Shown: positions 1-15,208 of the stretch, piece by piece
Position numbering within the stretch: position 1 is the stretch's first letter
How the letters are laid out: each line of letters begins with the position of its first letter
Origin: an uncultured Bacilli bacterium
Lineage (GTDB): Bacteria; Bacillota_I; Bacilli_A; RF39; UBA660
Direction of reading: 5' to 3'
Assembly (NCBI GenBank): GCA_944358525.1
Contig: CALVRI010000011.1
Coordinates: 1 to 35,496 of the forward strand
Length of the DNA: 35,496 nt
Notes under the pieces: model-generated
What the model was told of the DNA's origin: nothing
The model's database searches: none
What the model saw: the letters and a program-made list of their open reading frames with translations, nothing else
Made by a program: the position numbers and the translations under genes

Positions 1-376
1 ATTCTTTATAAGTTGGATCGTTTTCATCTATACATGGTCCAGTTGAATCCCATACATAAAGGGTATTTCCAGATACTTTTTCAACATAGCCAACATGTCC
101 ATATGAAGTCCAGCCACCCCAAACTATAATAGAGTTAGCTTTGGGAGTAGTTCCGACACTATATCCAGCATTTTTGGCATCACTATACCACTCTTTAGCA
201 TTACCCCATCCTGGCAAAGTTACACCGGCTTTTTCATAGGCCATTTTCCAAGCATACCAAGTACAGTTTGTGCCATAAGGGCCACTTTGTTTATATGGGT
301 TACTAGCCGCACTTACCCCACTAATACTTAATACATTAATAATAAGCAATAAAATAATTATTTTAATTTTTTTCAT
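1..376 (-). CDS. Secreted CHAP-domain peptidoglycan hydrolase (3' end cut off by window edge)
   Basis: 125 codons are visible from the ATG at 376; the gene runs off the left edge without a stop. The protein opens with a signal peptide (MKKIKIIILLLII, then a VSAAS cleavage region near residue 24) and passes straight into a CHAP domain. The expected catalytic cysteine sits in NCTWYAW (about residue 38) and the catalytic histidine in YGHVGYVE (about residue 93). CHAP domains are NlpC/P60-like amidases or endopeptidases that cut peptide stems or cross-bridges of peptidoglycan outside the membrane. A GGAGAG ribosome site lies 7 nt before the start, which supports this start codon. It is transcribed away from the J-domain gene. 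Whether the missing part holds SH3 or other wall-binding domains cannot be seen. The domain call is firm; the bond it cuts is not known. Confidence 0.85.
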   Translation of the reverse strand, partial: MKKIKIIILLLIINVLSISGVSAASNPYKQSGPYGTNCTWYAWKMAYEKAGVTLPGWGNAKEWYSDAKNAGYSVGTTPKANSIIVWGGWTSYGHVGYVEKVSGNTLYVWDSTGPCIDENDPTYKE

Positions 377-408
377 AATACTCTCTCCACTACATTTAAC
401 TCGGTTTC

Positions 409-414
409 ATTATA
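409..414 (-). promoter_or_regulatory. Extended -10 promoter for the CHAP gene
   Basis: On the minus strand the sequence reads TGGTATAAT, an extended -10 element (TGn-TATAAT), about 33 nt before the CHAP start codon. The -35 position is poor (GTTAAT), as is common with extended -10 promoters. Confidence 0.55.
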
Positions 415-433
415 CCATATTTTCGTTGTTTAT

Positions 434-443
434 TAACATGTTA
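434..443. repeat. 10-bp perfect palindrome between divergent promoters
   Basis: TAACATGTTA is a perfect palindrome lying between the two divergent promoters of the CHAP and J-domain genes. It could be an operator acting on both, but no protein can be assigned to it and a 10-bp AT-rich palindrome can occur by chance. Confidence 0.3.
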
Positions 444-451
444 TGTACGAT

Positions 452-480
452 TTTACAAACAATTTAATTTCATATATAAT
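452..480 (+). promoter_or_regulatory. Sigma-A promoter for the J-domain gene
   Basis: TTTACA (452-457) and TATAAT (475-480) are separated by exactly 17 bp, a near-consensus housekeeping promoter. The start codon follows 24 nt after the -10 box. Confidence 0.75.
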
Positions 481-504
481 TATTTCTTGTAAAGGACTGG
501 TTAT

Positions 505-1260
505 ATGAATAGTGCACTTAATTATTATGAACTTTTAGGAGTTAGTGAGAATGCGACTAAAGAGGAGATTAAAAAAGCTTATAAAACTCAGATGAAAAAA
601 TGGCATCCTGATATTAATAAATCGGAGGAAGCTCCCGAGATGTCTATTAAATTAAACGAAGCAAAAGAAACACTTTTAGATGATGATAAAAGAAAAGCTT
701 ATGATTTAAGTTTGAAAAAAGAAGTTAATCAGAATTACAATAAGTTTAATTATGGACAAAAAAGTAATGAAAATACTTATACTAATTATGATACTTCATA
801 TAATACATATGAAGAAGCTAGAAAGGTTACTAAATGGGAATACTTCAAAGAATATTTAAAGTATAGTACTGATTCTAAATTAAGAAAGTTTTTGGCTATT
901 ATTGGTGTCGGCTTAGAAAGTTTTATGTGTTTTATTATAAAAATATTATTAATTGGGCTTGCTTTTTTAAGTAGTTTTGGCAGTTATTTAATAATGATGA
1001 CTTTTAGTTTATTAGCGCCTATTTTAGGGTTACTTTTAATAGTTGTTGTTGGTACTTTTCTTACTAAAGGTTTTATTAACACTATTACCGATTCTACAGT
1101 TGTTCAAGGAATACTTATATTTGGAAGTTTATATGTATTGATGTTGATACTACCAATTTTATCTAGAAAAATTATATCACCAAAAGTATTTGATATTTTG
1201 TATAATAAAATAGATATAAATTTATTTAAAAAATGTGTGGGATATGGAAAAAATGCTTAA
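505..1260 (+). CDS. Membrane-anchored J-domain (DnaJ-like) protein
   Basis: The first ~65 residues form a J domain: YYELLGVSENAT, helix II rich in lysine, then the HPD tripeptide in WHPDIN (about residue 34-36) that stimulates the ATPase of DnaK. There is no G/F-rich linker, zinc-finger or C-terminal substrate domain of true DnaJ. Instead a charged, asparagine/tyrosine-rich linker (about 70-120) leads to a strongly hydrophobic C-terminal half with three or so membrane spans (about 135-220). The product is therefore a type C J-protein that probably recruits DnaK to the cytoplasmic face of the membrane; its client is unknown. AAAGGA precedes the ATG by 9 nt. It is a single-gene unit between its own promoter and a hairpin shared with ackA. 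Confidence 0.8.
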   Translation: MNSALNYYELLGVSENATKEEIKKAYKTQMKKWHPDINKSEEAPEMSIKLNEAKETLLDDDKRKAYDLSLKKEVNQNYNKFNYGQKSNENTYTNYDTSYNTYEEARKVTKWEYFKEYLKYSTDSKLRKFLAIIGVGLESFMCFIIKILLIGLAFLSSFGSYLIMMTFSLLAPILGLLLIVVVGTFLTKGFINTITDSTVVQGILIFGSLYVLMLILPILSRKIISPKVFDILYNKIDINLFKKCVGYGKNA

Positions 1261-1275
1261 TTTTAAGCATTTTTT
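1248..1275. terminator. Bidirectional terminator between the J-domain gene and ackA
   Basis: AAAAAATGCTTAA (1248-1260) pairs with TTAAGCATTTTTT (1263-1275). The A-run and T-run on either side give a U-tract in both directions. The hairpin contains the stop codons of both convergent genes. Confidence 0.75.
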
Positions 1276-2444
1276 ATTAATTCTAAAGTATCTCTTGCAA
1301 TCATTAGTTCTTCATCAGTTGGAATGACATATACTTTTATTTTAGAGTTAGAGGTACTAATTAAAGCTTCTCCATGACAATTGTTATTCTTTTCATCATC
1401 AATTTCAACACCTAAACATTTTAAGTTTTCACAAACTAAGCTTCTAACTACAAAACTGTTTTCACCGATTCCAGCAGTGAATACTATGACATCTGCTCCA
1501 CCCAATAGTACATAATATTGAGCGATGTAATCAGTTATTCTTCTCGCATATTTATGCATAGTGAGTATTGCTCTTTCATCACCTTTATTATAAGCTTCGG
1601 TTAAATCTCTCATATCACTACTAATACCACTTAATCCTAAAATGCCGCTATGTTTATTTAAATCGTTGATAATAGCATTTATATCTTTATTTTCAGCTTC
1701 CATAACAGGTGGCAATAATGATGGATCAATATCTCCTGAACGGGTTCCCATCATAACTCCAGCAAGTGGTGTAAAGCCCATAGATGTGTCTACACATTTA
1801 CCATCTTTAACTGCAGTAATTGAAGCACCATTACCTATATGACAGCTAATTAATTTAAATTTATCGGTATTTAATATTTTGGACATTGTTTCAGTAATAT
1901 ATCTATGGCTTGTTCCGTGAGCACCATATTTCCTAATACCATATTTTTCGTACCATTCATATGGTACTGGATATATATAGGTTTCTTTATCCATTGTTTG
2001 ATGAAATGCTGTATCAAAGACAACAGTGTTTGGAACATTTGGTAAAGCTTTCATAAATGCTTCAATTCCAAGCATATTAGCTGGGTTGTGAAGTGGTGCG
2101 AAGTGTTTGATTGATTCTAGTTTTCGCATAACTTCATCATCTACAATAACTGATTTATCAAAGACATCTTTACCTTGAACCACTCTATGTCCAACACCTT
2201 CAATTTCATCTAGTGATTTTACAATATTCAAACTAATTAGTTTTTCAAGTAATAAATTAACTGCATCAACATGAGTTTTCAACTTAGCATCTTCTTCATA
2301 TTTTTCTCCATTAAATTTAATTTTATAGTGTCCATCAATGCCTATTCTTTCAAAGACACCACTTGCAATAACACTTTCATTTTCCATATTAATTAAACTA
2401 AATTTAAGTGAACTGCTTCCTGCGTTTATTGATAATATTTTCAT
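1263..2444 (-). CDS. ackA: Acetate kinase
   Basis: Catalyses acetyl phosphate + ADP = acetate + ATP, the substrate-level phosphorylation step of acetate fermentation, in the cytoplasm. The 393 residues match the usual ~400. Family landmarks are in order: N-terminal NAGSSSLKFSL (residues 7-17), GHRVVQGK near 85, DTAFHQTM near 145, the AHGTSHRYI block near 175, SCHIGNGAS near 201, the MMGTRSGDIDPS block near 232, and the adenosine-binding FTAGIGENS near 325. AAGGAGG lies 7 nt before the ATG, so the start is firm. A TATAAT box is visible on the minus strand at 2480-2485 with no good -35 partner. No phosphotransacetylase gene is adjacent, so the partner enzyme must be encoded elsewhere. Confidence 0.97.
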   Translation of the reverse strand: MKILSINAGSSSLKFSLINMENESVIASGVFERIGIDGHYKIKFNGEKYEEDAKLKTHVDAVNLLLEKLISLNIVKSLDEIEGVGHRVVQGKDVFDKSVIVDDEVMRKLESIKHFAPLHNPANMLGIEAFMKALPNVPNTVVFDTAFHQTMDKETYIYPVPYEWYEKYGIRKYGAHGTSHRYITETMSKILNTDKFKLISCHIGNGASITAVKDGKCVDTSMGFTPLAGVMMGTRSGDIDPSLLPPVMEAENKDINAIINDLNKHSGILGLSGISSDMRDLTEAYNKGDERAILTMHKYARRITDYIAQYYVLLGGADVIVFTAGIGENSFVVRSLVCENLKCLGVEIDDEKNNNCHGEALISTSNSKIKVYVIPTDEELMIARDTLELIKNA

Positions 2445-2589
2445 TTAAATTTCCTCCTTTTTATTGTTGAATTTTCTTAATTATATTTTAATTTTCATCT
2501 AAAACTATTTTCTATATTTGTCTCTTTCTTGTGTACAATAGAATTATAACATATATTTAATATAGGAAACAATAAATTATCTAAATAAA

Positions 2590-2664
2590 TGGTGTCCGAA
2601 AGGAGAATTGAACTCCTATCATTCCCTTCGGAGGGGAATACTTTATCCGTTAAGCTATTCGGAC
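2590..2664 (-). tRNA. tRNA-Arg (anticodon CCG), CCA encoded
   Basis: Folds as a complete 75-nt cloverleaf: acceptor GTCCGAA/TTCGGAC, T8-A9, D arm GCTT/AAGT, anticodon stem TTCCC/GGGAA with loop CTCCGAA (anticodon CCG at positions 34-36), T arm AGGAG-TTCAATT-CTCCT, discriminator A and encoded CCA. It reads the CGG arginine codon, a rare codon in AT-rich genomes. Confidence 0.95.
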
Positions 2665-2672
2665 ACATAAAT

Positions 2673-2701
2673 ATTATAACACGAAAAAGTCCAGGACTAA
2701 A
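2673..2701 (-). promoter_or_regulatory. Possible promoter for tRNA-Arg(CCG)
   Basis: On the minus strand TATAAT (2678-2673) lies 8 nt before the mature tRNA 5' end. At 17 bp spacing the -35 position reads TTTAGT, which falls in the loop of the preceding terminator. The tRNA thus appears to have its own start just after the end of the upstream operon. Confidence 0.5.
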
Positions 2702-2710
2702 CCTGGACTT
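2684..2710 (-). terminator. Terminator of the ftsY-ylxM-HerA operon
   Basis: AAGTCCAGG (2687-2695) pairs with CCTGGACTT (2702-2710) around a 6-nt loop. On the minus strand the stem runs into a short T-run before the tRNA. The hairpin includes the last codons and the stop of the 143-residue membrane protein gene. Confidence 0.75.
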
Positions 2711-3128
2711 CAATATTTATGTCAATATTATTTGTATTTTTTAAATTTTTATTGCTTTTAATTATTATATTTCTTTCAGCTTCTGCTGTTAAATTATCTC
2801 CAATATAACTTGTTAAAATTGTTTCATTATTTTTGTTATCTTTTAAAATTATGGTTATTGGAGATATTTTTAGTGTATTTGAAGTCATATTTGTAGCTTT
2901 AGCTGTCAAATAGAATTCATTATCTTTTTTAAATAATTTAATATCACTAAATAGAATATGATTTTCAACTCTGTTTTCAAAAGTTAGGTGAATCAGTTCT
3001 GGTTCATTTTCTATTTTTTTATTTTCTTTTTTTGGTATAAATATATAAATAGCAATAATTATGATAATTAAAAGTAAAACTATTAAAATAACTTTGCCAG
3101 GGGTTATGGCATTTATGTCTTTTTCCAT
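2697..3128 (-). CDS. Small membrane-anchored protein coupled to the HerA-like ATPase
   Basis: 143 residues, family not recognised. A short cytoplasmic N-terminus is followed by one very hydrophobic span (about residues 11-32), then a lysine/glutamate-rich hinge and a ~100-residue extracytoplasmic domain of alternating strands. That pattern (LTFENRVENHILFSDIKLF, AKATNMTSNTLKI) resembles the beta-sandwich FxLYD-type domains of exported Gram-positive proteins, but I would not assign it to a family. Its ATG overlaps the TAA of the ATPase gene in the arrangement TAATG, which predicts translational coupling and a common pathway. It is the last gene of the ftsY operon. Confidence 0.75.
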   Translation of the reverse strand: MEKDINAITPGKVILIVLLLIIIIIAIYIFIPKKENKKIENEPELIHLTFENRVENHILFSDIKLFKKDNEFYLTAKATNMTSNTLKISPITIILKDNKNNETILTSYIGDNLTAEAERNIIIKSNKNLKNTNNIDINIEVQV

Positions 3129-4882
3129 TAATTAGCTTTCCAGGTTGCGAAAACATCACAACTACTTGATGAAGGTGCTGGGTCTGGCATTTTCATTCTG
3201 ACAATAGTTGGTATTTTGAAAGCACCACCAAAGGCCATACATGTTCCTGGCTGCAAGGTTTTTTGTTTTTCAACAATATCTGCTGAAATATTTGGAAGCA
3301 TTTTTGTTATATAATCTAAATCTCTTGGATGGGTAATCTTAAAGATTAAGAAGTTCGCACATTGTGAAATAACAGTATCAGATATTTCAACCGGTCTTTG
3401 TGAAATAAGGTTGAAAATCAAACCGTATTTACGACCTTCTTTAGCTGCTCTTTCAAAAATATTATATCCAATCAATTCGACATCACCATCGTTTTGAACA
3501 TATCTGTGAGCTTCTTCAACAAAGATATGAAATGGAATAGATGCTCTATTTTTTAAACTTTTAGTGAAGTTAAATAACATTTTAGTATATATTTTAACAA
3601 CTACTTTAGCAAACCAATCTTCAACATCTTCTAGGTTAAAATTAATAACTTGAGCTTTTTTCCCATTTTTAGCAACTAATGTGGCTATATAATTTTCCAT
3701 GGTAATAAAACTTGGGTAACGTAAATATCTAGAATTTTCAGATATAGTTAGTGAGTGAAGTCTTACTTTTAACTCAATTGCATCAGCATATGTATCAGTA
3801 TTATTTAATAATCCTTCACTGATTAAAGTAAATTCTAATGCTTTTTCTAAATCTTCTAAAGTATAAAATTTAACTTCTTTAGGTTCAAATTTATCTAATG
3901 ATTCATCAATAAAACTTGTAATATACTCAGTCATTAAGATACTTTCTGGGAACTGTCCTTGAGTATCAATTGTGAAACATTCTCTGAATTTTCGAGTATA
4001 TCCAATACCTTGGACTGGTGCTTCTAAATTAAACTGCTCAGTAGAACAAGTTGCTAAAATGGCAAAAACATCATTTCTTTTACTGCTGGCTGTTTGATTT
4101 GTATATAAAATTGTCATTATGGCTTTAGCTATTAAATGATTTTTATATTTTGTACTCATTTCATCATCGGATGCAAATATATTAACCAATTTTAACATTC
4201 TTTCAATGATTGTTAATTGTGAATGTTTATCGGCTCTAAGCAATAATGCCATATCATCAATATCTAAAAGCCATAGTGGAATTGAAAGTATTTCACCATC
4301 TGTTTGATGAACATTAGTTGTATAGAATTTAAAGTTTAAATTTGGGTTTATTTGATTAATATTTTGTAAGGCATTATGATATTCACCATAGGCATCAAAT
4401 ATAAAGAAATTAGATCTAAATGGCAATAGTTTTTGATTTTCAAAAACATTTTGAAGTAATCTTGCAACTCCGCACGATTTACCAGAACCGCTGTTACCAA
4501 ATATGGCCATATGACTACTGAATAAGTCATTGATATCAACTCTGATTGGATGACTATCATATAATGGACTTTCTCCAATAACAAAAGACGAAGGTGTGTC
4601 ATCACCAACAATTAGATTTACTTCTTCATCACTAATTAATCTAAGATGTGAATTAAAAGTTGGCTTTCTAATAACACCTCCAACAAATTTACCATTAGTG
4701 ATTTCACCTAAAAATCTAATTTTAATGATATCTGAACTAATATCTTCAACTTCTCCTAATATTTTTTTCTTTTCATCTTCAAAAATAACATGCATGTTCA
4801 TGATGTTTGTTGAAATTGAACCATCCTTTGGTGTTTCAACGTGTGCTTCAGTATTACTGATATAAAGTATTTTTCCAAACAT
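3128..4882 (-). CDS. HerA/FtsK-type DUF87 hexameric ATPase
   Basis: 584 residues. The N-terminal ~100 residues look like the HAS-barrel of HerA proteins. The P-loop GNSGSGKS sits at residues 129-136, the Walker B IFVEEAH in the C-terminal half, followed by an arginine-rich stretch (FERAAKEGRKYG) and a sensor-like SQRPVEIS. HerA proteins are ring-shaped DNA translocases; in archaea they work with the nuclease NurA, and bacterial relatives appear in DNA repair or with SIR2/DUF4297 effectors in phage defence. No nuclease or effector gene lies here: the neighbours are ylxM upstream (12-nt gap) and a small membrane protein whose start overlaps this stop. A housekeeping role is more likely than defence, because the gene sits inside an ftsY operon. 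The ATPase family is sure, the role unknown. Confidence 0.85.
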   Translation of the reverse strand: MFGKILYISNTEAHVETPKDGSISTNIMNMHVIFEDEKKKILGEVEDISSDIIKIRFLGEITNGKFVGGVIRKPTFNSHLRLISDEEVNLIVGDDTPSSFVIGESPLYDSHPIRVDINDLFSSHMAIFGNSGSGKSCGVARLLQNVFENQKLLPFRSNFFIFDAYGEYHNALQNINQINPNLNFKFYTTNVHQTDGEILSIPLWLLDIDDMALLLRADKHSQLTIIERMLKLVNIFASDDEMSTKYKNHLIAKAIMTILYTNQTASSKRNDVFAILATCSTEQFNLEAPVQGIGYTRKFRECFTIDTQGQFPESILMTEYITSFIDESLDKFEPKEVKFYTLEDLEKALEFTLISEGLLNNTDTYADAIELKVRLHSLTISENSRYLRYPSFITMENYIATLVAKNGKKAQVINFNLEDVEDWFAKVVVKIYTKMLFNFTKSLKNRASIPFHIFVEEAHRYVQNDGDVELIGYNIFERAAKEGRKYGLIFNLISQRPVEISDTVISQCANFLIFKITHPRDLDYITKMLPNISADIVEKQKTLQPGTCMAFGGAFKIPTIVRMKMPDPAPSSSSCDVFATWKAN

Positions 4883-4894
4883 AATTTTCCTCCC

Positions 4895-5185
4895 CTATAA
4901 TAACTCTTCTATTTGTTTTTTGATTTCTGGATTTATATTTTTAATTATTTCTTTTATTTTTTGACTGTTTTGATATTGTTTTAATATATTTTCATAATGT
5001 ATTAATTTGTTTTCTGTATCTTTGATTTGTTTATGAACAGCATTTCTCGATACGTTTTCGTTTTCAGCTATTTCTGATAGTGTTAGATTATTGAAGTAAT
5101 ATGATTTAAAGTAATCTTGCTGCTTATCTGTGAGTAACTCTCCATAATAGTCGAATAAATTACTTAAATAAATTGTTTTATCCAT
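4895..5185 (-). CDS. ylxM: YlxM/p13-family helix-turn-helix protein of the SRP pathway
   Basis: 96 residues. It contains the family pattern DYYGELLTDKQQDYF near the N-terminus and a sigma-70 region 4-like helix-turn-helix (LTLSEIAENENVSRNAVHK, about residues 34-52), then a coiled-coil C-terminal tail. YlxM is classically encoded next to ffh or ftsY and in streptococci modulates signal recognition particle GTPase activity. Here it begins directly after the ftsY stop codon, with AAAGGA inside the ftsY end as its ribosome site, so the two are co-translated. ffh itself is not in this window. Confidence 0.88.
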   Translation of the reverse strand: MDKTIYLSNLFDYYGELLTDKQQDYFKSYYFNNLTLSEIAENENVSRNAVHKQIKDTENKLIHYENILKQYQNSQKIKEIIKNINPEIKKQIEELL

Positions 5186-6160
5186 TTATTCATCCATTCC
5201 TTTAAATAAACCATATATATATTTTTCAATATCAAATACCCTTAAATCATCTTTTGTTTCACCTAAACCAACATATTTAACAGGTATTCCTGTTTCTTCT
5301 TTAATTGCTAAAACAATTCCACCCTTGGCTGTGCCATCTAATTTAGTTAAGACGATACCGGTTATATTGGTTATTTCTTTGAAATTTTTAGCTTGACTAA
5401 TACCATTTTGTCCGGTAGTGGCATCGATTACAAGTAGTGTTTCATGTGGTGCATTTTCTATTAATTTGCCAATAACTTTATTTACTTTTTCTAACTCTTT
5501 CATTAAACCCACTTTATTTTGAAGTCTTCCAGCAGTATCGATTAAAACAACATCATAGTTTTCTTCTTTGGCTTTATTAACCCCATCATACATGACACTT
5601 ACGGGATCAGCATTTTCTTTGGAGACAATATCGACGCCTATCCTTTTTGCCCATTCATCTAATTGTTCGATAGCTCCAGCTCTAAAGGTATCACCAGCAA
5701 CCATTAAAACTTTCTTACCTTCTTCTTTTAGTTTGTGTGCTATTTTACCAATAGTTGTCGTTTTGCCAGCACCATTTACCCCGACGAATAAGATAACAGT
5801 TGGTCCTTCTTTAGCATAATTAATTTTATTTGTTATGATATCGCCATCAACATATATAATGAACATTTCATCTACTATAATATCTTTTAACTCATCAGCT
5901 GTTTTGATGTTTTCTTTTTTAACACGTTTTTTTAATCTATCGATTATTTCCATTACGGTGTTTACTCCAATATCAGACATAATTAATATTTCTTCTAGGT
6001 TTTCAAAGTATTCATCATCAACTATTTTGTGGCTTTTATTTAAGTTTAATAAAGCTGATAAGAAATTATCTCTTGTTTTTTCTAATCCTTTATCATAAAT
6101 TTGTACTTCTTCTTTTTCTTCTTTTTTAAAGATGTTTTTAAATTTGTCAAATAATCCCAT
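5186..6160 (-). CDS. ftsY: Signal recognition particle receptor FtsY
   Basis: The SRP receptor GTPase docks ribosome-SRP complexes at the membrane and releases them to SecYEG. The NG domain is complete: helical bundle at about 25-110, P-loop GVNGAGKT (about 127-134), DTFRAGA, DTAGR and TKLDG motifs, ending in the typical GLGE...DLRVFD. The acidic A domain is reduced to about 20 residues (KKEEKEEVQ), normal for this group. I start at the ATG at 6160 (MGLFDKF), because AGGGTG lies 6 nt upstream; a GTG 9 nt earlier overlaps that ribosome site. First gene of a four-gene minus-strand operon. A possible promoter is TTGCGG-17-TAGAAT in the gap before it. Confidence 0.96.
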   Translation of the reverse strand: MGLFDKFKNIFKKEEKEEVQIYDKGLEKTRDNFLSALLNLNKSHKIVDDEYFENLEEILIMSDIGVNTVMEIIDRLKKRVKKENIKTADELKDIIVDEMFIIYVDGDIITNKINYAKEGPTVILFVGVNGAGKTTTIGKIAHKLKEEGKKVLMVAGDTFRAGAIEQLDEWAKRIGVDIVSKENADPVSVMYDGVNKAKEENYDVVLIDTAGRLQNKVGLMKELEKVNKVIGKLIENAPHETLLVIDATTGQNGISQAKNFKEITNITGIVLTKLDGTAKGGIVLAIKEETGIPVKYVGLGETKDDLRVFDIEKYIYGLFKGMDE

Positions 6161-6234
6161 GTTTATCACCCTGTTACTATAATAATTCTACACTATTTTT
6201 TTCGAAACCGCAATAAATATAGAGAAATTTCAAC

Positions 6235-6258
6235 AAAAAGACTGGATTAACCAGTCTT
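6235..6258 (-). terminator. Terminator after the DGxTLxxH-family cluster
   Basis: AAGACTGG (6238-6245) pairs with CCAGTCTT (6251-6258) around a 5-nt loop; on the minus strand it is followed by TTTTT. It ends the transcript of the gene stopping at 6262. Confidence 0.75.
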
Positions 6259-6261
6259 AAA

Positions 6262-6954
6262 TTAAAAAGAAAATGTTTTGCGGGACAAGGTCATAACTAG
6301 AACTTTTTCCCCATCTTCTGCATTAATAAATTGACAGTTTTCTGGAAGCTTTTCTTCTGACGGTGTTAGACTTTTAACTTCTTCTTCTGTCATATATTTT
6401 TGTTTCTTTAAACAGTTTATAATAGCTTTATTTTCTATATTATCTGTTTGAGCTAATTTTTTAAAGTTTACTTTAAATATGACAGTCGGAATGTACTCTT
6501 CGATTACTTTTAATATCATTAAATCTATGAAATCTATATATGAGGCTAGGCTATGGTCAATAAGAGTCTTTCCATCAGATGTTTTATCAGTAAAACTTAA
6601 GTATAATGATGTGTTTACATATGTATTGCCCGTACTATCACATATTTTAAGCATTAAAGTTACTGGAGTATCTTTGTATACTTCTAAAAGGTGATATTTT
6701 GGAAAACGTGAAAAGGTACTTCTTATATATTCTAATTCAACTGTAAGCTCATCTTTGGGAATGTTTGTAATGGCAGAGACTTCTTGAACTAAATCACCTA
6801 TGCTTATGTATATTTGGGAATCTTTATTTAAGTCTGCCATTTTACTTTTTGTTTTTTGAATCTCACTTTCTAAAGAATTTAACTTTTCAGTTAGACAACT
6901 AATTTGTTCTCTTTGAGAGAGAAACGTTTCGACTGTTTCATTTTCTTTTTTCAC
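6262..6954 (-). CDS. Unrecognised coiled-coil protein with DGxTLxxH motif (paralogue 3 of a tandem family)
   Basis: 230 residues from the GTG at 6954, chosen because AAGGAGTGG lies 5 nt upstream; an earlier in-frame GTG at 6996 has no such site. The first ~45 residues are a heptad-like coiled coil (LTEKLNSLESEIQK). A block IGDLVQEVSAITNI follows, then a strand-rich middle and the motif SDGKTLIDHSLAS (about residue 135), then a helical tail (ENKAIINCLKKQKY). The same order of blocks recurs in the two genes upstream, so these are paralogues. No signal peptide or membrane span is present, so the product is cytoplasmic. I do not recognise the family and assign no function. The start overlaps the end of the preceding broken copy by 17 nt. 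Confidence 0.75.
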   Translation of the reverse strand: MKKENETVETFLSQREQISCLTEKLNSLESEIQKTKSKMADLNKDSQIYISIGDLVQEVSAITNIPKDELTVELEYIRSTFSRFPKYHLLEVYKDTPVTLMLKICDSTGNTYVNTSLYLSFTDKTSDGKTLIDHSLASYIDFIDLMILKVIEEYIPTVIFKVNFKKLAQTDNIENKAIINCLKKQKYMTEEEVKSLTPSEEKLPENCQFINAEDGEKVLVMTLSRKTFSF

Positions 6955-7683
6955 TTTTACCACTCCTTTTAAGTATTTTTTGCATTCCAATTTCACGCTC
7001 TTTTTGTTTATTTAAAATATTTGAAATAGTTTTAAGTAATAATTCTCTTGGATGAAAAAACGGATAATCTTCGGGGTGCGCTAAATCATATAAATCAAAA
7101 TTGCATATAATATCATCCATGTTTTATTTTTTAATCCAAAGCCTTGTTATTAAATTTTTAGAAGGCTTATTTGCACGAGAGGCAACTGTATAGGTGTGAT
7201 CAAATAATGTCTCACCATCTGCCTGAAGAGTAGATAAATAACTATAAAACTTGTGATTATAATAAAATTTTATAGAAACTTGTTCACCAAATAAAGGGTA
7301 ATGTTCTGTTTTTTTGCTTTGAATTGTTAAAGATAGATCTACTGGTTTTTCTGTCCAAAATGCCTTACGTGATTTTTTTAAACTATGAGGGCTTCCCTCT
7401 TTGTAAACATTTATAATATTTACATCATAGTCCATATCTTCTACATTTATACCCGTCAAGCTAGACAATTTTTCTATTAAGTCACCTAATCTTACAGAGA
7501 TAATCTCATTGTTTGCAAAGAAAACACTTTCCAATAAGGCAGATTTAAATTCATCTTTTAGAGATCAATCAATCTTTTAAACTCTTCTTGAGCCGGAATG
7601 GTTTTGATTTGAGTTTCAATGTTTTGGACTCTTTTTTCTTTTTCCTTATATTCTTTTACTAATTCTTCTAATGATTTTTCCAT
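6938..7683 (-). pseudogene. Broken middle paralogue of the DGxTLxxH family
   Basis: Translation can start at the ATG at 7683 (AAAGGAAAT upstream) and reads a coiled-coil N-terminus (MEKSLEELVKEYKEKEK...) until a stop at 7558-7560. The homology continues in another frame (SLKDEFKSALLESVFF), consistent with loss of one base near 7561-7566. That frame carries the family block RLGDLIEKLSSLTGI and the motif QADGETLFDH, then meets an in-frame TAA at 7124-7126. The same frame resumes one codon later with NMDDIICNFDL, which lines up with IENIICSFNL of the 272-residue paralogue, and ends at 6938. So one frameshift and one nonsense codon separate three pieces of one gene. The pieces could in principle still make short proteins, but decay is the simpler reading. 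Confidence 0.75.
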
Positions 7684-7759
7684 ATTATTTCCTTTCTAAA
7701 TTTTGAAAATATATTACACTCTTAAAAATTTGTATAGTATTTTAAAACTTATATATAAT

Positions 7760-8578
7760 TTATTTTCTATATTTTAGTTTTTTCATCATTTTACTTTGAG
7801 AGTTGTTTTCCTTGGCCATAGGTGTTTGTATAATCTCTTTTATTGTATATTTATGTTTATGTAGACAGTCTATAACGGCTTTTGATAATAAGTTATTATC
7901 ATAGTTATTTTTAAAATTTACTATTTGTTTTAAATTAAATGAACATATAATATTTTCGATTGATGTTTTATCAATTATGCAAAATAATCCAAGTATTTCG
8001 ATTTTCTTATGATCTTCAGGTCTAATAAATGAAGATACTTTGACAGGTCTTTTTTTACTATGTTCTAATAAGGTTTTGCCATCAGCTTGGATATCTGATA
8101 AATGTCCATCAAATGTAATATTTAATGGTGGCTGACCTTTCACATATATATTTATATTTACATTTACTGTTTCTTTGGTATTTTTGGCAATATATTTTAT
8201 AAATTCATCTTTATTTGAAAGTTCTTTATATGATTCTATCGGTTGGTAGTTAACATAAGAGCGATGTCCTGATATTTCGATATCTTTGATATTTATTTTT
8301 GTTATGTTTGATATTTCATTTATAATATCTTTGAGTTTAATATGTATTTTATAAGTTAATATACATTTATTTAAATTTTGTCTTGCTTCATCAAGTTTAT
8401 CATTTATTGGAGATGTTTCCTGTTCGAATATTTTGTTAAAAAAAGTTATTTGTTCTTCTAATGCTTTTACTTTTTCATCTAATGCTATTCTTAAACCATT
8501 AATTTTTTGTTCATAATCATCTATTTGATGTTTAATTATTTCGTATTCACTAATATATTCTTCTATATTTTTATACAT
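7760..8578 (-). CDS. Unrecognised coiled-coil protein with DGxTLxxH motif (paralogue 1, intact)
   Basis: 272 residues, the longest and best-preserved of the three tandem paralogues. Residues ~1-75 form a long coiled coil (YEIIKHQIDDYEQKINGL...). Next come the family block IKLKDIINEISNITKI (about 85), a strand-rich domain with a GQPPLNITFDGHL stretch, the motif IQADGKTLLEH (about 175), and a helical, lysine-rich tail (ENIICSFNLKQIV, LSKAVIDCLHKHKY). No export signal, membrane span or catalytic motif that I recognise. It is preceded by a strong promoter at 8605-8634, so the cluster is a transcription unit separate from the kinase gene upstream. A 76-nt AT-rich gap separates it from the broken copy. 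Confidence 0.75.
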   Translation of the reverse strand: MYKNIEEYISEYEIIKHQIDDYEQKINGLRIALDEKVKALEEQITFFNKIFEQETSPINDKLDEARQNLNKCILTYKIHIKLKDIINEISNITKINIKDIEISGHRSYVNYQPIESYKELSNKDEFIKYIAKNTKETVNVNINIYVKGQPPLNITFDGHLSDIQADGKTLLEHSKKRPVKVSSFIRPEDHKKIEILGLFCIIDKTSIENIICSFNLKQIVNFKNNYDNNLLSKAVIDCLHKHKYTIKEIIQTPMAKENNSQSKMMKKLKYRK

Positions 8579-8604
8579 ATAAATTTCTCTTTCTTTTAGG
8601 TAAT

Positions 8605-8634
8605 ATTATATAAAAACAGCAATTTAATTGTCAA
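8605..8634 (-). promoter_or_regulatory. Strong sigma-A promoter of the DGxTLxxH cluster
   Basis: On the minus strand a perfect TTGACA (8634-8629) and a perfect TATAAT (8610-8605) are 18 bp apart, 26 nt before the start codon. Confidence 0.8.
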
Positions 8635-8647
8635 TTATTAATTTGCT

Positions 8648-9688
8648 TTAAACTGTTTTTCTTAAAATTTCTAATAGTTTTTTTGAAATATTTTCTTTAT
8701 TTTTAATTAAATAACGACATATATTAGTTCTTTCCCTACCAAATTCTAACATATTTAAATCACCCGTGTTCAAGTACTGTTTATACCCATAAGTACTTGA
8801 TAAAACTTGAATTAAATAAATGTATGGTAAATATTTTAAATCTTCTTTAGTTAAGCTGGAATATTTCATAAATTCTTCTATATATAAAACTAAATTATCA
8901 GTGTTAAATTTGCCATTTTTACCCTCTTTATCCATATAGTTATATGAACGAGCTATCTCCCAAGCTATGGGAAGTTCACCAGATGCCGAGAAATCTAAAA
9001 TAGCTTTTATATTATCGTTTGAATCATAAATAAACTGAAGAACATTATAATCTCCGTGGGTTTTCTTTATAGTTATATTGGTTATGGCTTGAAATGTTTG
9101 ATTTTGTTTTACTTCATTTAAAAAGTTTATTTTATCTATTAAATCTCTTTTTATTGCTTCTCCATAAATATTATCTTTTTCAGCTAACAATATTAAAGCT
9201 TGGTGTTTAGCTATACTTTCATCTATATCTTGAGCGCTTTTAAACTTGTTTATATTAGCTTTAAACATATCATCATAAGGGTAATCTTCTAAGGCGTTGA
9301 TGATAAGTCCTAAATATTTTGCAGACTCTAAAAGGTCTTTTATCTCGCCGGTATATTTATCTTTGGTTATGCCTTCGATATATTTTTGAAGGATAATAAT
9401 TCTACCATTATATTCAAAATAGTTTTGATTATTAGTGCATGGAATATATTCTGGGACTGGCAAGCCTTTTTGTCTTAAATGGTTAATCACATGCACTTCT
9501 TTGAGTATCATTTTAGAGTTAAACTTAGACTGAAATTCTTTTAAAATATACTTTCTATTATGTATATCAGTAAGTTTATATATATTCGCATTTCCACCAT
9601 TAATTACCTCTATTTTATCGATGTCTAGATTGTAATGTTTTTTTACTTCGGCTTTGATTATTTTTTTATTTAAACTTTTTTCTATCAT
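8648..9688 (-). CDS. Aminoglycoside-phosphotransferase-fold kinase (APH/choline kinase superfamily)
   Basis: 346 residues with the two-lobed small-molecule kinase pattern. The N-lobe has NGGNANIYKLTD (nucleotide-binding loop, about 25-36) and YILKEFQ with the ATP-anchoring lysine. The catalytic loop is KTHGDYNVLQF (about 214) and the metal-binding aspartate lies in AILDFSASG. Relatives phosphorylate aminoglycosides, choline, homoserine or spore-coat substrates (CotS). The substrate here cannot be told from sequence; antibiotic resistance should not be assumed. The ATG follows the Nudix stop by one base and the ribosome site lies inside the end of that gene (AGGGGTTAGT), so the two are coupled. 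Confidence 0.8.
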   Translation of the reverse strand: MIEKSLNKKIIKAEVKKHYNLDIDKIEVINGGNANIYKLTDIHNRKYILKEFQSKFNSKMILKEVHVINHLRQKGLPVPEYIPCTNNQNYFEYNGRIIILQKYIEGITKDKYTGEIKDLLESAKYLGLIINALEDYPYDDMFKANINKFKSAQDIDESIAKHQALILLAEKDNIYGEAIKRDLIDKINFLNEVKQNQTFQAITNITIKKTHGDYNVLQFIYDSNDNIKAILDFSASGELPIAWEIARSYNYMDKEGKNGKFNTDNLVLYIEEFMKYSSLTKEDLKYLPYIYLIQVLSSTYGYKQYLNTGDLNMLEFGRERTNICRYLIKNKENISKKLLEILRKTV

Positions 9689-9689
9689 A

Positions 9690-10115
9690 CTAACCCCTAT
9701 TTAAAACGGTTTTAACTTTTTCCAAGATTTCTTTTTGTTCTTGATATGTTACTTTATTAATTGCTTTTTGGAGTGGTAACCATTTACCTTCTGTAAAGTT
9801 TTCTTTTTCTAAAGGAATAATGTTTTGTAGTTCATCTATTTTAAATAAATAGACTTTTATGTTTTTATCACTATTTTCGGTGTCAGAAAAATAATTAAAT
9901 TCACCTATTTTATCAATTAAATCTTCTTTTTTTAATTTTATTTGAGTTTCTTCTAGTACTTCTCTTATAGCTGTTTCTACAAAGGTTTCTTCTTCTTTAA
10001 AATGACCTTTAGGTAATACCCAATTATCATCTTTGTCTTTTAAAAGAGCAGTATAAATTTGCCTATTTTGAATATGTGTGACAACTCCCATGCACGAAAT
10101 TATTGGTTTAGACAT
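9690..10115 (-). CDS. Nudix hydrolase
   Basis: 141 residues, the standard size for a single Nudix domain. The Nudix box is complete: GHFKEEETFVETAIREVLEE (about residues 37-56) with the REVLEE glutamates that bind magnesium. The family cleaves nucleoside diphosphates linked to another group. The preceding LPKGHF and the short domain fit MutT/Ap4A-type enzymes, but the substrate is not evident. Coupled to the kinase gene downstream. A ribosome site GAGGTGAT precedes the ATG by 4-5 nt. Confidence 0.88.
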   Translation of the reverse strand: MSKPIISCMGVVTHIQNRQIYTALLKDKDDNWVLPKGHFKEEETFVETAIREVLEETQIKLKKEDLIDKIGEFNYFSDTENSDKNIKVYLFKIDELQNIIPLEKENFTEGKWLPLQKAINKVTYQEQKEILEKVKTVLNRG

Positions 10116-10135
10116 ATAATCACCTCTTATTTAAG

Positions 10136-10164
10136 ATATTATCATTTAATTATAGTATTTTCAA
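10136..10164 (-). promoter_or_regulatory. Probable promoter of the Nudix-kinase pair
   Basis: On the minus strand TTGAAA (10164-10159) and TAATAT (10141-10136) are 17 bp apart, 20 nt before the Nudix start codon. A second TATAAT at 10154-10149 has no -35 partner. Confidence 0.5.
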
Positions 10165-10247
10165 TGTTTAAGTGCAGATTATATTGTATTTTGAGATTTT
10201 CTTTTATTTATTTTGTTTTTTATTAAGTGAAGTTATTATAAGTGAAC

Positions 10248-10276
10248 TTGTCAAAGATGGAAAAAAAGGATATAAT
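10248..10276 (+). promoter_or_regulatory. Sigma-A promoter of rnjA
   Basis: TTGTCA (10248-10253) and TATAAT (10271-10276) with a 17-bp spacer. The 5' leader is about 33 nt and carries AAAGGAGT 5 nt before the start codon. Confidence 0.8.
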
Positions 10277-10315
10277 GTTATAGTCAGTTTTAACTTTTAA
10301 AGAAAGGAGTTTATA

Positions 10316-12001
10316 ATGAAGTTTAATAAAGATGAGACTTACGTTTTCGCTTTAGGCGGACTTGGTGAAGTCGGAAAAAATATGTATTGTATAATGCATA
10401 ATGATGAAATTATTATTACTGATGCGGGTGTTATATTCCCTGGTGGGGAACTTTTAGGAATTGATTATGTTATTCCGGATTTTACGTTTTTAAAACAAAA
10501 TGAAAGTAAGATAAAAGGTTTATTTATTACTCATGGTCATGAGGATCATATTGGAGGAATTCCTTTTTTACTTTCAGAAGTTAATATTCCGGCTATATAT
10601 GCCCCTAATCAAGCTGCGGCTTTGATTAGAAAAAAATTAGAAGATAGAAAAATTAAATATAATAATCTATTTATTTATAAGGATGATAGTGTTTATAGGT
10701 TTAAAAATATGTGGGTTGAATTTTATAGAACTACCCACTCTATTCCAGATTCACACGGTATAGTTATTCATACTCCAGATGGTGTAATTATGACAACTGG
10801 TGATTTTAAATTTGATTTGACACCAATTGGTCCGATGGCTGATGTCGGTAAGATTGCAAGACTTGGTTCTGAAGGGGTTACTTTACTTTTAAGTGATAGT
10901 ACAAATGCGATGAACCCTGGTATAAGTATCAGTGAATCTAAAGTGGATGATGCTTTGGAGGAGTTATTTAACAAACATGATAGTAGAATTATTATTGCGA
11001 CATTTGCTTCTAATATATATAGATTAAAACATATTGTCGACACTTGTAAAAGACACGGAAGAAAAATTGCGGTGTTTGGTAGAAGTATGGAAAATAATAT
11101 TGAAATTTCTATTGAAGGTGGATATATTAAACATAAGGAAATATTTATTACACCAGATGAAGCTACAAAGCTTCCTTCAAATAAAGTGTGTTTACTTTGT
11201 ACAGGTACCCAAGGAGAACCACTAGCCGCTTTAAGTAGACTTGCGAATGGAACATTTAGACATATTACTTTACGCAGTGATGATGTGGTGGTATTTTCAT
11301 CATCAGCTATTCCAGGTAATGCATTAAGTATTTCAAGAACAATTAACAAATTATATTTAAAAGGAATAACGGTTTATACAAATACATCTCTAAGTGATAT
11401 TCATGCATCTGGACATGCGAATGAAGAGGAATTAAAATGGATGCTTAGACTAGCTAAGCCTAAATATTTTATGCCATTTCACGGAGAATATAGGATGCTG
11501 AAAAGACATGCGGACATTGCTACTGAATGTGATATTCCTAGGGAAAATACTTTTGTTTTAAGTAATGGAGATGTGCTTTCTATTAAAAAAGGTGTAGTTA
11601 CTAAAGCTGGACATATTCAAGCTGGAGATACTTATGTAGATGGTAACCGTATTGGTGAAGTTAGTAATGCAGTAATGAAAGACCGAAAGATCATGGCTAA
11701 TGATGGAATTGTGGTCGTAATCGCTAATATTAATGTTCAAAATGGTAAATTACTTACTAATCCCAATATTATTACAAGAGGTTTTGTACTTGTGAATGAT
11801 AATTTAGATTTACTAAAAAAATTAGAACTTATTGCAAGAGATGCAATTAATAATAAAATTAAAACTGGCATAAATTATACAGATGTAAAAAATGAGATTA
11901 TTAATAGCTTAAGTAGTTATATAGGTTTACACACGGGTAGAAAACCAATTATCTTACCAGTAATTATGGATATCAAAAAAGACGTTAAATTAAATTCTTA
12001 A
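10316..12001 (+). CDS. rnjA: Ribonuclease J
   Basis: A metallo-beta-lactamase/beta-CASP ribonuclease with 5'-3' exonuclease and endonuclease activity, central to mRNA decay and rRNA maturation in Bacillota. The 561 residues match RNase J1 (~555). Zinc ligands lie in ITHGHEDHIGG (about residues 73-83) and HSIPDSHGI (about 142). The beta-CASP part carries GRSMENNI, LLCTGTQGEP and FSSSAIPGN, and the C-terminal MBL part holds the HASGHA and PFHGEYRML histidines. Transcribed alone from its own promoter and ended by a hairpin overlapping its stop. Confidence 0.96.
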   Translation: MKFNKDETYVFALGGLGEVGKNMYCIMHNDEIIITDAGVIFPGGELLGIDYVIPDFTFLKQNESKIKGLFITHGHEDHIGGIPFLLSEVNIPAIYAPNQAAALIRKKLEDRKIKYNNLFIYKDDSVYRFKNMWVEFYRTTHSIPDSHGIVIHTPDGVIMTTGDFKFDLTPIGPMADVGKIARLGSEGVTLLLSDSTNAMNPGISISESKVDDALEELFNKHDSRIIIATFASNIYRLKHIVDTCKRHGRKIAVFGRSMENNIEISIEGGYIKHKEIFITPDEATKLPSNKVCLLCTGTQGEPLAALSRLANGTFRHITLRSDDVVVFSSSAIPGNALSISRTINKLYLKGITVYTNTSLSDIHASGHANEEELKWMLRLAKPKYFMPFHGEYRMLKRHADIATECDIPRENTFVLSNGDVLSIKKGVVTKAGHIQAGDTYVDGNRIGEVSNAVMKDRKIMANDGIVVVIANINVQNGKLLTNPNIITRGFVLVNDNLDLLKKLELIARDAINNKIKTGINYTDVKNEIINSLSSYIGLHTGRKPIILPVIMDIKKDVKLNS

Positions 12002-12010
12002 CGTCTTTTT
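11976..12010. terminator. Bidirectional terminator between rnjA and the prepilin-like gene
   Basis: AAAAAGACGTTAA (11976-11988) pairs with TTAACGTCTTTTT (11998-12010), loop 9 nt. T-runs occur on both strands and the stop codon of rnjA lies in the stem, with the prepilin-like gene ending at its edge. Confidence 0.8.
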
Positions 12011-12383
12011 ACTTGCAATCATTTGGTGCATTGTATTTATAATTGTATTTAGTATTATTTGCTGTTTCAGTGGCTGTTATGGTAACTGAAGCATTGTTTA
12101 AACTGCACCCTTTTGATGGTAATTTAATATCTTTAGGTAAATATCCTCCACTTTGTAGAGTTGATACAGTGACAGTGTATGATGATGCGTTATTAACTGT
12201 AGCTTTATTATCACTTAACCAATTTCTAGCAGCTAGTACAATAGAATCTTGGGTATCTTTGTCGGCTTCGTCTTGTCCTTTTTGAATACTGCTTGTAACA
12301 CTTGGAACAATTACAAGCAATAAAAGAGATAAGATGACAATAACACCTAGTAATTCAATTAGTGTAAATCCTTTATTTTTCAT
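12009..12383 (-). CDS. Type IV prepilin-like protein (N-methylation motif)
   Basis: 124 residues. The N-terminus has the class III signal: positively charged MKNKG, cleavage expected between G5 and F6, then FTLIELL with glutamate at mature position 5, followed by the ~20-residue hydrophobic helix shared by pilins, competence and type II secretion pseudopilins. The C-terminal domain is short and strand-rich, with two cysteines (93 and 123) placed like the D-region disulfide of pilins. No prepilin peptidase, assembly ATPase or other pilin gene is nearby, so this is an orphan. Its ATG overlaps the end of enolase by 11 nt; AGGTAATAGG in the enolase tail is the only ribosome site. Confidence 0.85.
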
Positions 12384-13611
12384 TACCTATTACCTCTTCA
12401 ATACGAAGTAATTCATTGTATTTGCTTGTTCTATCAGTTCTAGAAAGTGAACCGGTTTTTATTTGACCTAAATTTAATCCAACGGCTAAATCAGCGATAG
12501 ATGTATCTTCAGTTTCACCACTACGATGAGAAATTATAGTCTTATAACCATGCGCTTTAGCTAAGTTAATAGTATCTAAGGTTTCACTAATGGTTCCAAT
12601 TTGATTTATTTTTAACAAAATAGCATTTCCAGCATTCATGTCTATACCTTTTTGTAGGTATTTTTGATTAGTTACAAATAAATCATCACCAACTAGTTGA
12701 ATTTTATCTCCATATTTTTTTGTCATTTTTTGGAAACCTTCCCAGTCATTTTCATCTACTGGGTCTTCAATTGAAATGATTGGATATTTATCTAATAATG
12801 TTTGATAGTAATCAATTAATTCATCAGTTGTTAATTTCAAATTGGCTCCTTTTAAATTATAAATTCCATCTTCATAAAATTCACTAGCAGCTACATCGAT
12901 GGCAAAGTTAACATCTTTACCTGGGGTGTATCCAGCTTCATTAATAGCTTTAATAAGTAAATCCAAAGCTTCTTCATTAGTGTTTAAGTTAGGGGCAAAA
13001 CCACCTTCATCCCCTACTCCTGTATGATACCCTGCTTTATTTAAAACACTTTTTAAATGATGAAATACTTCGCTACCTATTTGTAATCTTTTACTAAATG
13101 TTTCAGCAACAGGTACAATCATAAATTCTTGAAAGTCTAATCCATTATCGGCATGAGCACCGCCATTTAAAATGTTCATCATAGCTCTTGGCATTGAATA
13201 TTCTTTTCCGATATATTCAAATAGTGGTTTATTACTATCTAAAGCAGCGGCTTTTAAGTTGGCAAGTGAAATGCCTAATATAGCATTCGCACCATATTTT
13301 TCTTTATTTTCGGTTCCATCTAGTTTTAATAATGTCTCATCAATTTTTCTTTGATCTTTGGGGTCCATTCCGATTAAGGAATTTTTTAAAATATTATTGA
13401 CATTATTTACAGCTGTTAAAACCCCTTTACCCATATATCTTGATTTATCATTATCTCTTAGTTCTAGCGCTTCTCTAGTTCCGGTAGAGGCTCCTGATGG
13501 AACTGCTGCTCTACCTATAAGTCCATTTTCTAAAATAACATCTACCTCAACTGTAGGGTTACCTCTTGAATCTAAAATTTCTCTAGCTTTTATATCTTTA
13601 ATTTTTGACAT
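12373..13611 (-). CDS. eno: Enolase
   Basis: Converts 2-phosphoglycerate to phosphoenolpyruvate in glycolysis; magnesium dependent. Conserved blocks are all present: [16 protein letters not shown] (about 9-24), [17 protein letters not shown] with the substrate histidine (about 150), GDEGGFAP with the catalytic glutamate (about 200), the metal-binding SIEDP and GDDL, the catalytic lysine in LLKINQIGT (about 334), and SHRSGETED (about 363). At 412 residues it is slightly shorter than the usual ~430, mainly at the C-terminus. GAGGGAG lies 5-6 nt before the ATG. The start overlaps the upstream unknown gene by 14 nt, and the stop overlaps the prepilin-like gene. Confidence 0.97.
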
Positions 13612-14299
13612 GTGTTTCTCCCTCTTTCTTTATTGCGTTTTTTTGATTTATTAGATAAATTAAACCACGATATTTATTTAACCAAAATCTGTAGTCTTTT
13701 AAATCTTCTAAAAAATCTTCTGAATTCTTTTTTTCAAATGTATCAATGTATTTTTGAATATCTTCTTTAAACTTTATCCAATAAGTTAGACTATATTCAA
13801 TAGTATAATTTATATGTGGTCCTCTTAACTTAGGATCACCTTTTGGTGGTCTAAAGAAAACATCGTCATTGGTGATTATTTGTGCGACTTGATAATTTAA
13901 TGGTATTTCTTTTCCAGTTATTTTACTTGTAAATTGATTTTTATTTTGATCAAAGTCAAAACTAAATAAATATAAAACATCTTGACAAGCTGTTCTTTCT
14001 GATTTTAAAACTTCTGGTTTTCCTTTATTATTCATACTTTCTCGTGTTTTAACAAATTCTAATATTTTATCTATAGTTTTGTTATATACAAGATTGCTAT
14101 AGTAAGTATAAATAAATATGTCATTGAATTCATCATAGAATTCATTTTCATATTCTTTAATGATTGATATCAATATTTGTTCAAATTGTTCATCAGATAA
14201 ATTGTCATGAATGTTTAATTCTGATTTTAAGCTTTCTTCGAACTTTTCTAATAATACTTCTGGAAAATTAGAATATTTTAGACTATTTTCTTCTTGCAT
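13598..14299 (-). CDS. Uncharacterised cytoplasmic protein upstream of eno
   Basis: 233 residues, family not recognised. It is highly charged, without signal peptide or membrane spans. Predicted helices at both ends ([13 protein letters not shown]..., [19 protein letters not shown]) flank a central part with [11 protein letters not shown] and a proline/glycine-rich [14 protein letters not shown] loop. No nucleotide-binding or catalytic motif was found. It is the first gene of a transcript with eno and the prepilin-like gene, each overlapping the next. GGTGAT precedes the ATG by 3 nt. Confidence 0.6.
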
Positions 14300-14358
14300 A
14301 TTATCACCAGTATAATTATATCATTTTTTTTAATGTTTGTAATTAAAATCATTATATT

Positions 14359-14390
14359 TTTATGTTTGTCTTTATTGACTTTATGTTTGT
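14359..14390 (+). repeat. Two 11-bp direct repeats over the promoter at 14375-14403
   Basis: TTTATGTTTGT occurs at 14359-14369 and 14380-14390, 21 bp apart (two helical turns); a partial copy TTAATGTTTGT is at 14330-14340. The second copy fills the spacer of the promoter. The arrangement looks like an operator. Confidence 0.5.
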
Positions 14391-14403
14391 TGATGTTTAT
14401 AAT
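14375..14403 (+). promoter_or_regulatory. Sigma-A promoter of the zinc-ribbon-like gene
   Basis: TTGACT (14375-14380) and TATAAT (14398-14403) with a 17-bp spacer, 18 nt before the start codon. Confidence 0.78.
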
Positions 14404-14421
14404 TAGTCTAGGAGGGTTATT

Positions 14422-15021
14422 ATGAGTTTGTCAGTATTAGAAATTGAAAAAGGGGCTGATGAATTAAGGAAACCTTTTCACAAAAGGATTGATAAATTAA
14501 AGGAGTTAGAACAGGTACTTTTAAATGATGATAAAGTGCAGCTTTATATCTTTTTACATGGTGAGATTTCTAAATTAACGGATAAAGAAAACGAAGAACT
14601 TGCTATATATTATAATGATGTAAGAAAAGAATGTGAACACCCTTTATATTTATGTGTCACAGATGGTAGTGATTTTGGATATTCTTACAAATGTATTTGT
14701 CTTAACTGTGGTCATACTGAACATTTTAAACAGTATGAATTGGATGAATTGTTTGCTGATCATAGAGTTATTGCCCAAAAAATGGATTATAGAAGTGAAA
14801 ATGGTAAAGATACTCACTATTATTTAGCGCTTTCTAACATGAGTGAAGCTAGTGAATATTATAAAGAATGTTGTAAACATATTTTAGAATTAAATCAAAA
14901 ACTTAAAAATGCTGATATGTCTTCTATAGAAGAAGCTGCTTCAGAAATGACATTTAATTATTTTGTTTTCCAAGATAAAGATAAAAAAAGTGGAAAACAA
15001 TATGTAAAACGTATATATTAA
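14422..15021 (+). CDS. Uncharacterised protein with a possible zinc-binding Cys/His cluster
   Basis: 199 residues, family not recognised. The N-terminal ~75 residues and the C-terminal ~50 are charged helices, likely coiled coil. In the middle (about 73-100) lie CEHPLYLCV and CICLNCGHTEHF: the spacing C-x-H...C and C-x-C-x2-C-x-H could bind one zinc ion in a ribbon-like fold. No signal or membrane segment. It is a single-gene unit with a strong promoter bearing direct repeats, AGGAGGG 5 nt before the ATG, and its own terminator, so it is likely expressed and regulated separately. Function unknown. Confidence 0.7.
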   Translation: MSLSVLEIEKGADELRKPFHKRIDKLKELEQVLLNDDKVQLYIFLHGEISKLTDKENEELAIYYNDVRKECEHPLYLCVTDGSDFGYSYKCICLNCGHTEHFKQYELDELFADHRVIAQKMDYRSENGKDTHYYLALSNMSEASEYYKECCKHILELNQKLKNADMSSIEEAASEMTFNYFVFQDKDKKSGKQYVKRIY

Positions 15022-15026
15022 TCTAT

Positions 15027-15059
15027 AAAATGTAATTATTTATTACATTTTTTCTTTTT
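15027..15059 (+). terminator. Terminator of the zinc-ribbon-like gene
   Basis: AAAATGTAAT (15027-15036) pairs with ATTACATTTT (15042-15051) around a 5-nt loop, followed by TTCTTTTT. Confidence 0.75.
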
Positions 15060-15084
15060 ATAATTATGAAAATGCAAAAATGTA

Positions 15085-15113: not shown

Positions 15114-15131
15114 TATTTTGTTGCATGAGTT

Positions 15132-15208
<77 letters not shown>

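Follow-up and report, generated by a model that had tools for sequence, protein, structure and literature searches.

A patchily distributed and apparently undescribed protein family at the rnj-ftsY hotspot of small-genome gut Bacilli

The window, by which we mean the whole stretch of 35,496 nucleotides that was analyzed, is a contig of a metagenome-assembled genome (MAG) of an uncultured Bacilli bacterium (G000; 81 contigs, 80% complete). Its minus strand carries three homologous genes from position 8578 to 6262, with one promoter before them and one terminator after them. Copy 1 (7760..8578) is an intact member of the alpha subfamily; it begins with ATG and encodes 272 amino acids, which comprise a 75-residue helix, a core domain and a basic tail. 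Copy 2 (6938..7683) belongs to the middle subfamily and is broken by a frameshift and an in-frame TAA. Copy 3 (6262..6954), of the gamma subfamily, is intact and encodes 230 amino acids; its GTG start, which overlaps the end of copy 2, is preceded by aaaaggag. The three adjacent genes with a common block order that a preliminary description had reported are present on this strand, and the order is as claimed. A profile search of the same genome, which is 80% complete, found no copies of the family beyond these three.

Copy 2 has two separate lesions. The frame that opens at its 5' end terminates at a stop at 7558-7560 and similarity resumes in another phase; the in-frame TAA lies at 7124-7126. 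All three copies are intact in the close relative G036, where the orthologue of copy 2 encodes 245 amino acids (L054:8905-9642). The earlier remark that the copies are partly decaying applies to copy 2 and not to copies 1 and 3. As the window is a contig of a fragmented and incomplete MAG, the damage could be an assembly error, in which case all three copies would be intact. We consider this unlikely; there are two separate lesions in copy 2, yet the neighboring copies and the flanking genes are intact. The lesion is best taken as real, with assembly error as a minor possibility.

Copy 1 is preceded by a perfect sigma-70 promoter on the minus strand (8605..8634; 12/12 positions), which ends 26 bp before the ATG. 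It consists of TTGACA at 8634-8629, a spacer of 18 bp and TATAAT at 8610-8605, exactly as the preliminary description had it. Behind copy 3 a predicted intrinsic terminator hairpin (6238..6258, minus strand) closes the operon. The same 12/12 promoter, TTGACA-17/18-TATAAT, is found upstream of 10 of 13 lead genes, at a distance of 13-28 bp from the start; the 13 come from the alpha, short and middle subfamilies, are related and hence do not amount to 13 independent tests. The downstream genes of the clusters lack a 12/12 promoter. The background in G000 is 9 out of 365 genes (~2.5%, copy 1 counted), when genes whose upstream intergenic DNA is 60 bp or longer are scored for a promoter within 150 bp. 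The perfect promoter has survived strong divergence of the proteins. The only other gene in the window with a 12/12 TTGACA/TATAAT pair within 150 bp upstream is at 29510-30352 (280 amino acids, minus strand).

A BLASTP comparison of copies 1 and 3 gave an E value of 4e-9 with 25% identity across 185 columns. A profile built from other genomes only, with every sequence of G000 and G036 excluded, scored copies 1, 2 and 3 with 119, 121 and 101 bits, respectively; shuffled controls reached at most 10.6 bits (n=900). Judged by these sequence scores, the homology of the three copies is far above chance. The proteins have a common order of blocks: a helix (residues 2-75), a strand-helix element xLxDLxxExSxxT, a series of strands, the motif [QW][AS]DGKTLxxH and a helical tail. 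Five residues are near-invariant among 23 members (D84, D166, L170, H173 and A234); four of them fall in two motifs, as the D in [LI]xD[LI][LIV] and as D, L and H in DGKTLxxH, and the fifth is an alanine within the last helix. The C-terminal tail is net positive in nearly all of these 23 members. A hydrophobic N-terminus or transmembrane segment was looked for in the window copies and not found, in agreement with the earlier statement that export signals are missing.

Next we considered the relationship among the copies. In a maximum-likelihood tree of 32 cores, in which the intact G036 orthologue represents copy 2, the window copies fall into three separate supported clades; the deep branches are poorly resolved. 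Other species are represented in each of the three clades, and a given clade lies at rnj-ftsY in some species and at other loci in others. A recent tandem duplication is ruled out, since the three copies belong to three separate supported subfamilies. The preliminary view that the copies had diverged too far for a recent duplication can be put more strongly: these are three old subfamilies, all of which have orthologues outside this species.

The genes that flank the cluster, rnj and ftsY, are divergent neighbors and core genes in this part of the genus. Here the family has its main site: the gap between them contains it in 10 genomes and lacks it in 9 genomes of the same genus. Three copies are present in G000 and G036, two in G014, G027, G029 and G031, and one in G002, G004, G020 and G038; the gap is without the family in G001, G009, G012, G016, G018, G025, G030, G032 and G033. 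The tandem clusters in other genomes, which had been named beforehand as support for a new family, are found as two to three copies side by side at rnj-ftsY. Presence differs even among close species: G012 has no insert, yet its FtsY is 98% identical to that of the window. A comparison with the empty sites of nine congeners defines an inserted segment of ~4 kb (6250..10233), with approximate bounds as the empty-site flanks align to the window up to ~6200-6250 and again from ~10233. This segment contains the three copies and two companion genes on the minus strand that lie outside the family, one for an APH phosphotransferase family protein (8648..9688; 346 amino acids; PF01636, E=2.1e-9) and one for a Nudix protein (9690..10115; 141 amino acids; PF00293, E=1.4e-14). 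No integrase, transposase or recombinase gene was found among the genes of the insert. Its ends have no terminal repeats; only weak AT-rich arms occur at the locus. The gap of G018 (L116, G018:C39) contains, without the family, a decayed Nudix fragment with 76% identity to window positions 9916-10072. This fragment is a relic of past occupation, and therefore loss also occurs at the site.

Other copies elsewhere are single and lie between unrelated housekeeping genes, which we take, from inspection of the translations by eye, to be frr, uvrB-lgt, nadD, ileS and cotE. Because these subfamilies occupy different loci in other genomes, a functional link to rnj or ftsY is unlikely. A search of the surroundings found no defense gene, phage or integrase linked to the copies. 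One copy was seen near a mobile element gene: a short member close to a contig end of G012 (G012:C6; L011/L137) adjoins a frame that looks by eye like TnpB of the IS200/IS605 type. In two genomes of another genus (G499 and G366; L060 and L062) members lie directly upstream of what is presumably a CotE-like spore coat gene, again as read by eye. One of these two members is truncated.

The tempo of the family was compared with that of ftsY, taken from pairs of genomes within the genus. The dN/dS ratio is 0.23-0.39 for family pairs and 0.23-0.47 for the cores; the value for ftsY is 0.026-0.040. No whole-gene pair reached 0.5 or more and clear positive selection was not found; one short N-terminal stretch has a dN/dS of 0.86. 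The family evolves fast, yet it is constrained. The dS values differ between pairs of genomes. Between G020 and G031 the family genes have the two lowest dS values of 18 genes (0.48 and 0.44; others 0.54-2.41, with ftsY at 1.90), and in the pair G020 and G012 the dS of the family gene is 0.42, against 0.77-1.84 in the other eight genes. The values are ordinary between G029 and G014 (0.95-1.01) and mid-range between G020 and G002; these two pairs look vertically inherited. The low values suggest that some copies are younger than their host species, which points to exchange between species in some cases. The low dS of the family could in part come from the base composition of AT-rich genes.

For G000 and G036 the locus was set against a genome-wide control. 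The island is 98-100% identical between the two genomes and nearby genes are 85-95% identical, with identity breakpoints within rnj and ftsY. The interior of copy 2 (7020..7620, minus strand) is divergent, with 57-85% identity per 60-bp bin, and both of its sides are 95-100% identical. The same pattern occurs far beyond the locus. Over ~200 kb the two genomes are a mosaic in which a third of the 1-kb windows share 98% identity or more, with the others ranging down to ~65%. A recent transfer of the island between G000 and G036 was dropped as an explanation because a third of the genome windows also reach 98% identity or more, and it is against this same background that the breakpoints in rnj and ftsY have to be read. 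A cassette-like switching of copy 2 was also rejected; the swap is sharp and real, but it has four comparable counterparts elsewhere within 189 kb. Island identity and the copy 2 swap demonstrate recombination (or a mixture of strains in the MAGs) and nothing peculiar to the family. The identity distribution itself is bimodal, with a sharp peak at 98-100%, a broad spread at 60-94% and breakpoints inside genes; this is seen in window positions 1-19657 against G036:C4 and across the ~200 kb. The mosaic reflects either very frequent interspecies recombination or strain mixing in MAGs.

Profile searches found members in ~18 of 44 genomes of the genus, two of these weak, and clear members in a few further genera of the same GTDB family (G301, G366, G464, G460, G499 and G605). 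Beyond this GTDB family there was no credible match among the 395 genomes of the class and 392 genomes of the phylum that were sampled. Eight weak HMM matches (G003, G079, G086, G174, G135, G092, G163 and G669) are short, mostly consist of coiled coil or overlap unrelated proteins only in part, and were taken as chance. One motif pattern, searched against the genomes of 84,980 species, resulted in seven loci, all in uncultured Bacilli/Tenericutes MAGs. By these searches the family is restricted to a single GTDB family of gut Bacilli with small genomes, where its distribution is patchy.

The cores of 26 diverse members were compared with four libraries (Pfam, NCBIfam, PHROGs and PADLOC), and no profile recognized them; in particular, the anti-phage defense profiles of PADLOC-DB gave no match. 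The PDB sequences also contain no match to the core. Three members match Bacteriophage Mu Gam-like (PF07352) weakly (best E 1.3e-4); this identity was rejected since the match is lost once the coiled coil is removed and so reflects coiled-coil composition, as do the Pfam matches to Sec8, IFT57 and the like. An origin from phages or plasmids was set aside because profile and tblastn searches of phages, plasmids and IMG/VR viral contigs found no relatives. The family appears to be undescribed in all libraries searched, and the preliminary description of it as unrecognized has withstood a search for a match to a known family.

We built AlphaFold2 models on alignments of only 11 sequences. The 272-residue model of copy 1 has a mean pLDDT of 80 and a pTM of 0.63; a natural 157-residue form without the coiled coil, from another genome, has values of 83 and 0.79. 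Both models predict the same succession of strand, helix, strand, short helix, four long strands, strand and two helices, with a single helix (residues 2-75) ahead of the core in copy 1 and DGKTLxxH in a turn ahead of the third long strand. The models thus predict one compact alpha/beta domain that is common to the modelled members with or without the coiled coil. The shared fold that had been anticipated among the copies is in this way seen between copy 1 and a member of another genome. Foldseek found no match for the models in the PDB or among the viral structures of BFVD at E<=0.001. A second-look structural aligner gave a best Z of 2.2 for the core model. The beta part of the long form aligned weakly with PTB-like structures (Z about 3.4, rmsd 7.9, 86 aligned residues); this alignment is not among the results for the core model. 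The lack of a match in PDB or BFVD does not exclude a known fold, and we do not claim a new one. The proteins could be a distant branch of a known family, with sequence similarity lost and the match missed by the fold search. The small alignments behind the models, the PTB-like alignment and the span of the fold comparison (PDB and BFVD) speak for this reading. It is nevertheless improbable in our judgment, as the confident core model found no counterpart at the Foldseek threshold and the 26 cores matched neither the four profile libraries nor the PDB sequences.

We propose the following picture. The protein would have a compact alpha/beta domain that usually follows a long N-terminal coiled coil, which probably forms an oligomer, and would end in a basic tail that might touch nucleic acid or membrane. 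The genes are accessory ones with a strong promoter and a terminator of their own, and would be strongly expressed. They are gained and lost in the rnj-ftsY gap and other intergenic sites, probably by homologous recombination in the flanking core genes, given that neither an integrase nor the ends of a transposon turned up. The most likely role would be to bind and neutralize, or to sense, a variable foreign partner such as a phage, a mobile element or a product of a competitor. The coiled coil could provide avidity and the fast-changing core specificity, and several diverged copies could broaden this specificity. A variable foreign partner would account for the divergence, the co-resident subfamilies and the patchiness. 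The reading that we prefer, tentatively and with less than even confidence, is thus an unnamed, lineage-restricted and exchangeable accessory family of cytoplasmic proteins that may bind and neutralize, or sense, such a partner. The preliminary description had spoken of genes under conflict or of variable specificity; this was not borne out beyond circumstantial signs, namely the patchy presence at the hotspot, the likely exchange and a dN/dS of 0.23-0.47 against ~0.03 for ftsY. Most neighborhoods of the family have housekeeping genes instead of a defense or mobile-element link, which counts against a conflict role; the failure to find a PADLOC match, clear positive selection or a relative in phages, plasmids or viral contigs weighs in the same direction. 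A bolder version, in which the fold is new and the proteins form a new class of intracellular conflict proteins, highly expressed, exchangeable and specific to small-genome gut Bacilli, with co-resident diverged copies as a specificity repertoire that ordinary recombination at core-gene hotspots shuffles from one species to another, strikes us as quite unlikely.

The main rival to a conflict role is a niche-adaptive adaptor or scaffold, e.g. for RNA, nucleoid, membrane or a host-derived ligand, which is kept by some species and drifts fast in sequence because its constraint is loose. The housekeeping neighborhoods fit such a protein, as do the strong promoter of constitutive type, the basic tail and whole-gene dN/dS values that stay below 0.5 in all pairs. 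It would be unusual, however, for a plain adaptor to occur as several diverged subfamilies next to one another and to be present or absent even among close species, and we rate this reading as somewhat unlikely. The genes could also be near-neutral orphan cargo that spreads with a recombining island and decays without a selected function in the host. This would agree with the broken copy 2, the many congeners without the genes and the site in G018, where a Nudix relic is all that is left; purifying selection (several pairs with dN/dS 0.23-0.30) and the retention of the perfect promoter by most lead genes make it very unlikely. The strong promoter together with accessory, probably exchanged and diverging genes points to a selected task in a group of uncultured gut bacteria, and sister species with filled and empty sites offer a natural comparison. 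If there is a conflict system here, it would be a new one beyond the reach of present defense catalogues; if not, the family is one more orphan among the very many catalogued.

Multi-copy diversifying genes, such as immunity genes or specificity-subunit arrays, have adjacent diverged paralogues, presence/absence variation and intragenic recombination. The cluster resembles them in all three respects; unlike them, the locus is without a toxin, methylase, recombinase or inverted-repeat cassette. A phase- or antigenic-variation cassette was also looked for, and neither inverted repeats with a recombinase at the locus nor silent donor copies in the 80% complete genome were found. Hotspots with variable cargo between core genes and without mobile genetic elements have been described (Oliveira et al. 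2017, PMC5635113). The rnj-ftsY gap is similar in its variable cargo within one core-gene gap, its empty sites in congeners, the lack of integrase and terminal repeats at the window site and the identity breakpoints inside rnj and ftsY. It differs in that one protein family recurs as cargo and that the flanking recombination is not distinguishable from the genome background. FESNov is a large catalogue of novel gene families from uncultivated taxa (PMC10849945), and the present family is like those in being conserved, confined to uncultivated genomes and absent from reference libraries. The kind of element is already known, as a lineage-specific accessory family in a hotspot without mobile elements; the family itself seems undescribed.

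The surroundings of the insert contain further genes. A gene for a HerA-type ATPase (3128-4882; PF01935) comes after ftsY and a YlxM-like gene, with all three on one strand and in an order kept in several congeners, and is itself followed by a gene for a 143-residue protein with no Pfam match. On the other side the end of enolase is overlapped by the gene for a prepilin-like protein (12009-12383) that has an N-terminal methylation motif (PF07963). No such gene is listed in G012 and G004, and its position is held in G027 and G038 by an unrelated protein of 190 amino acids.
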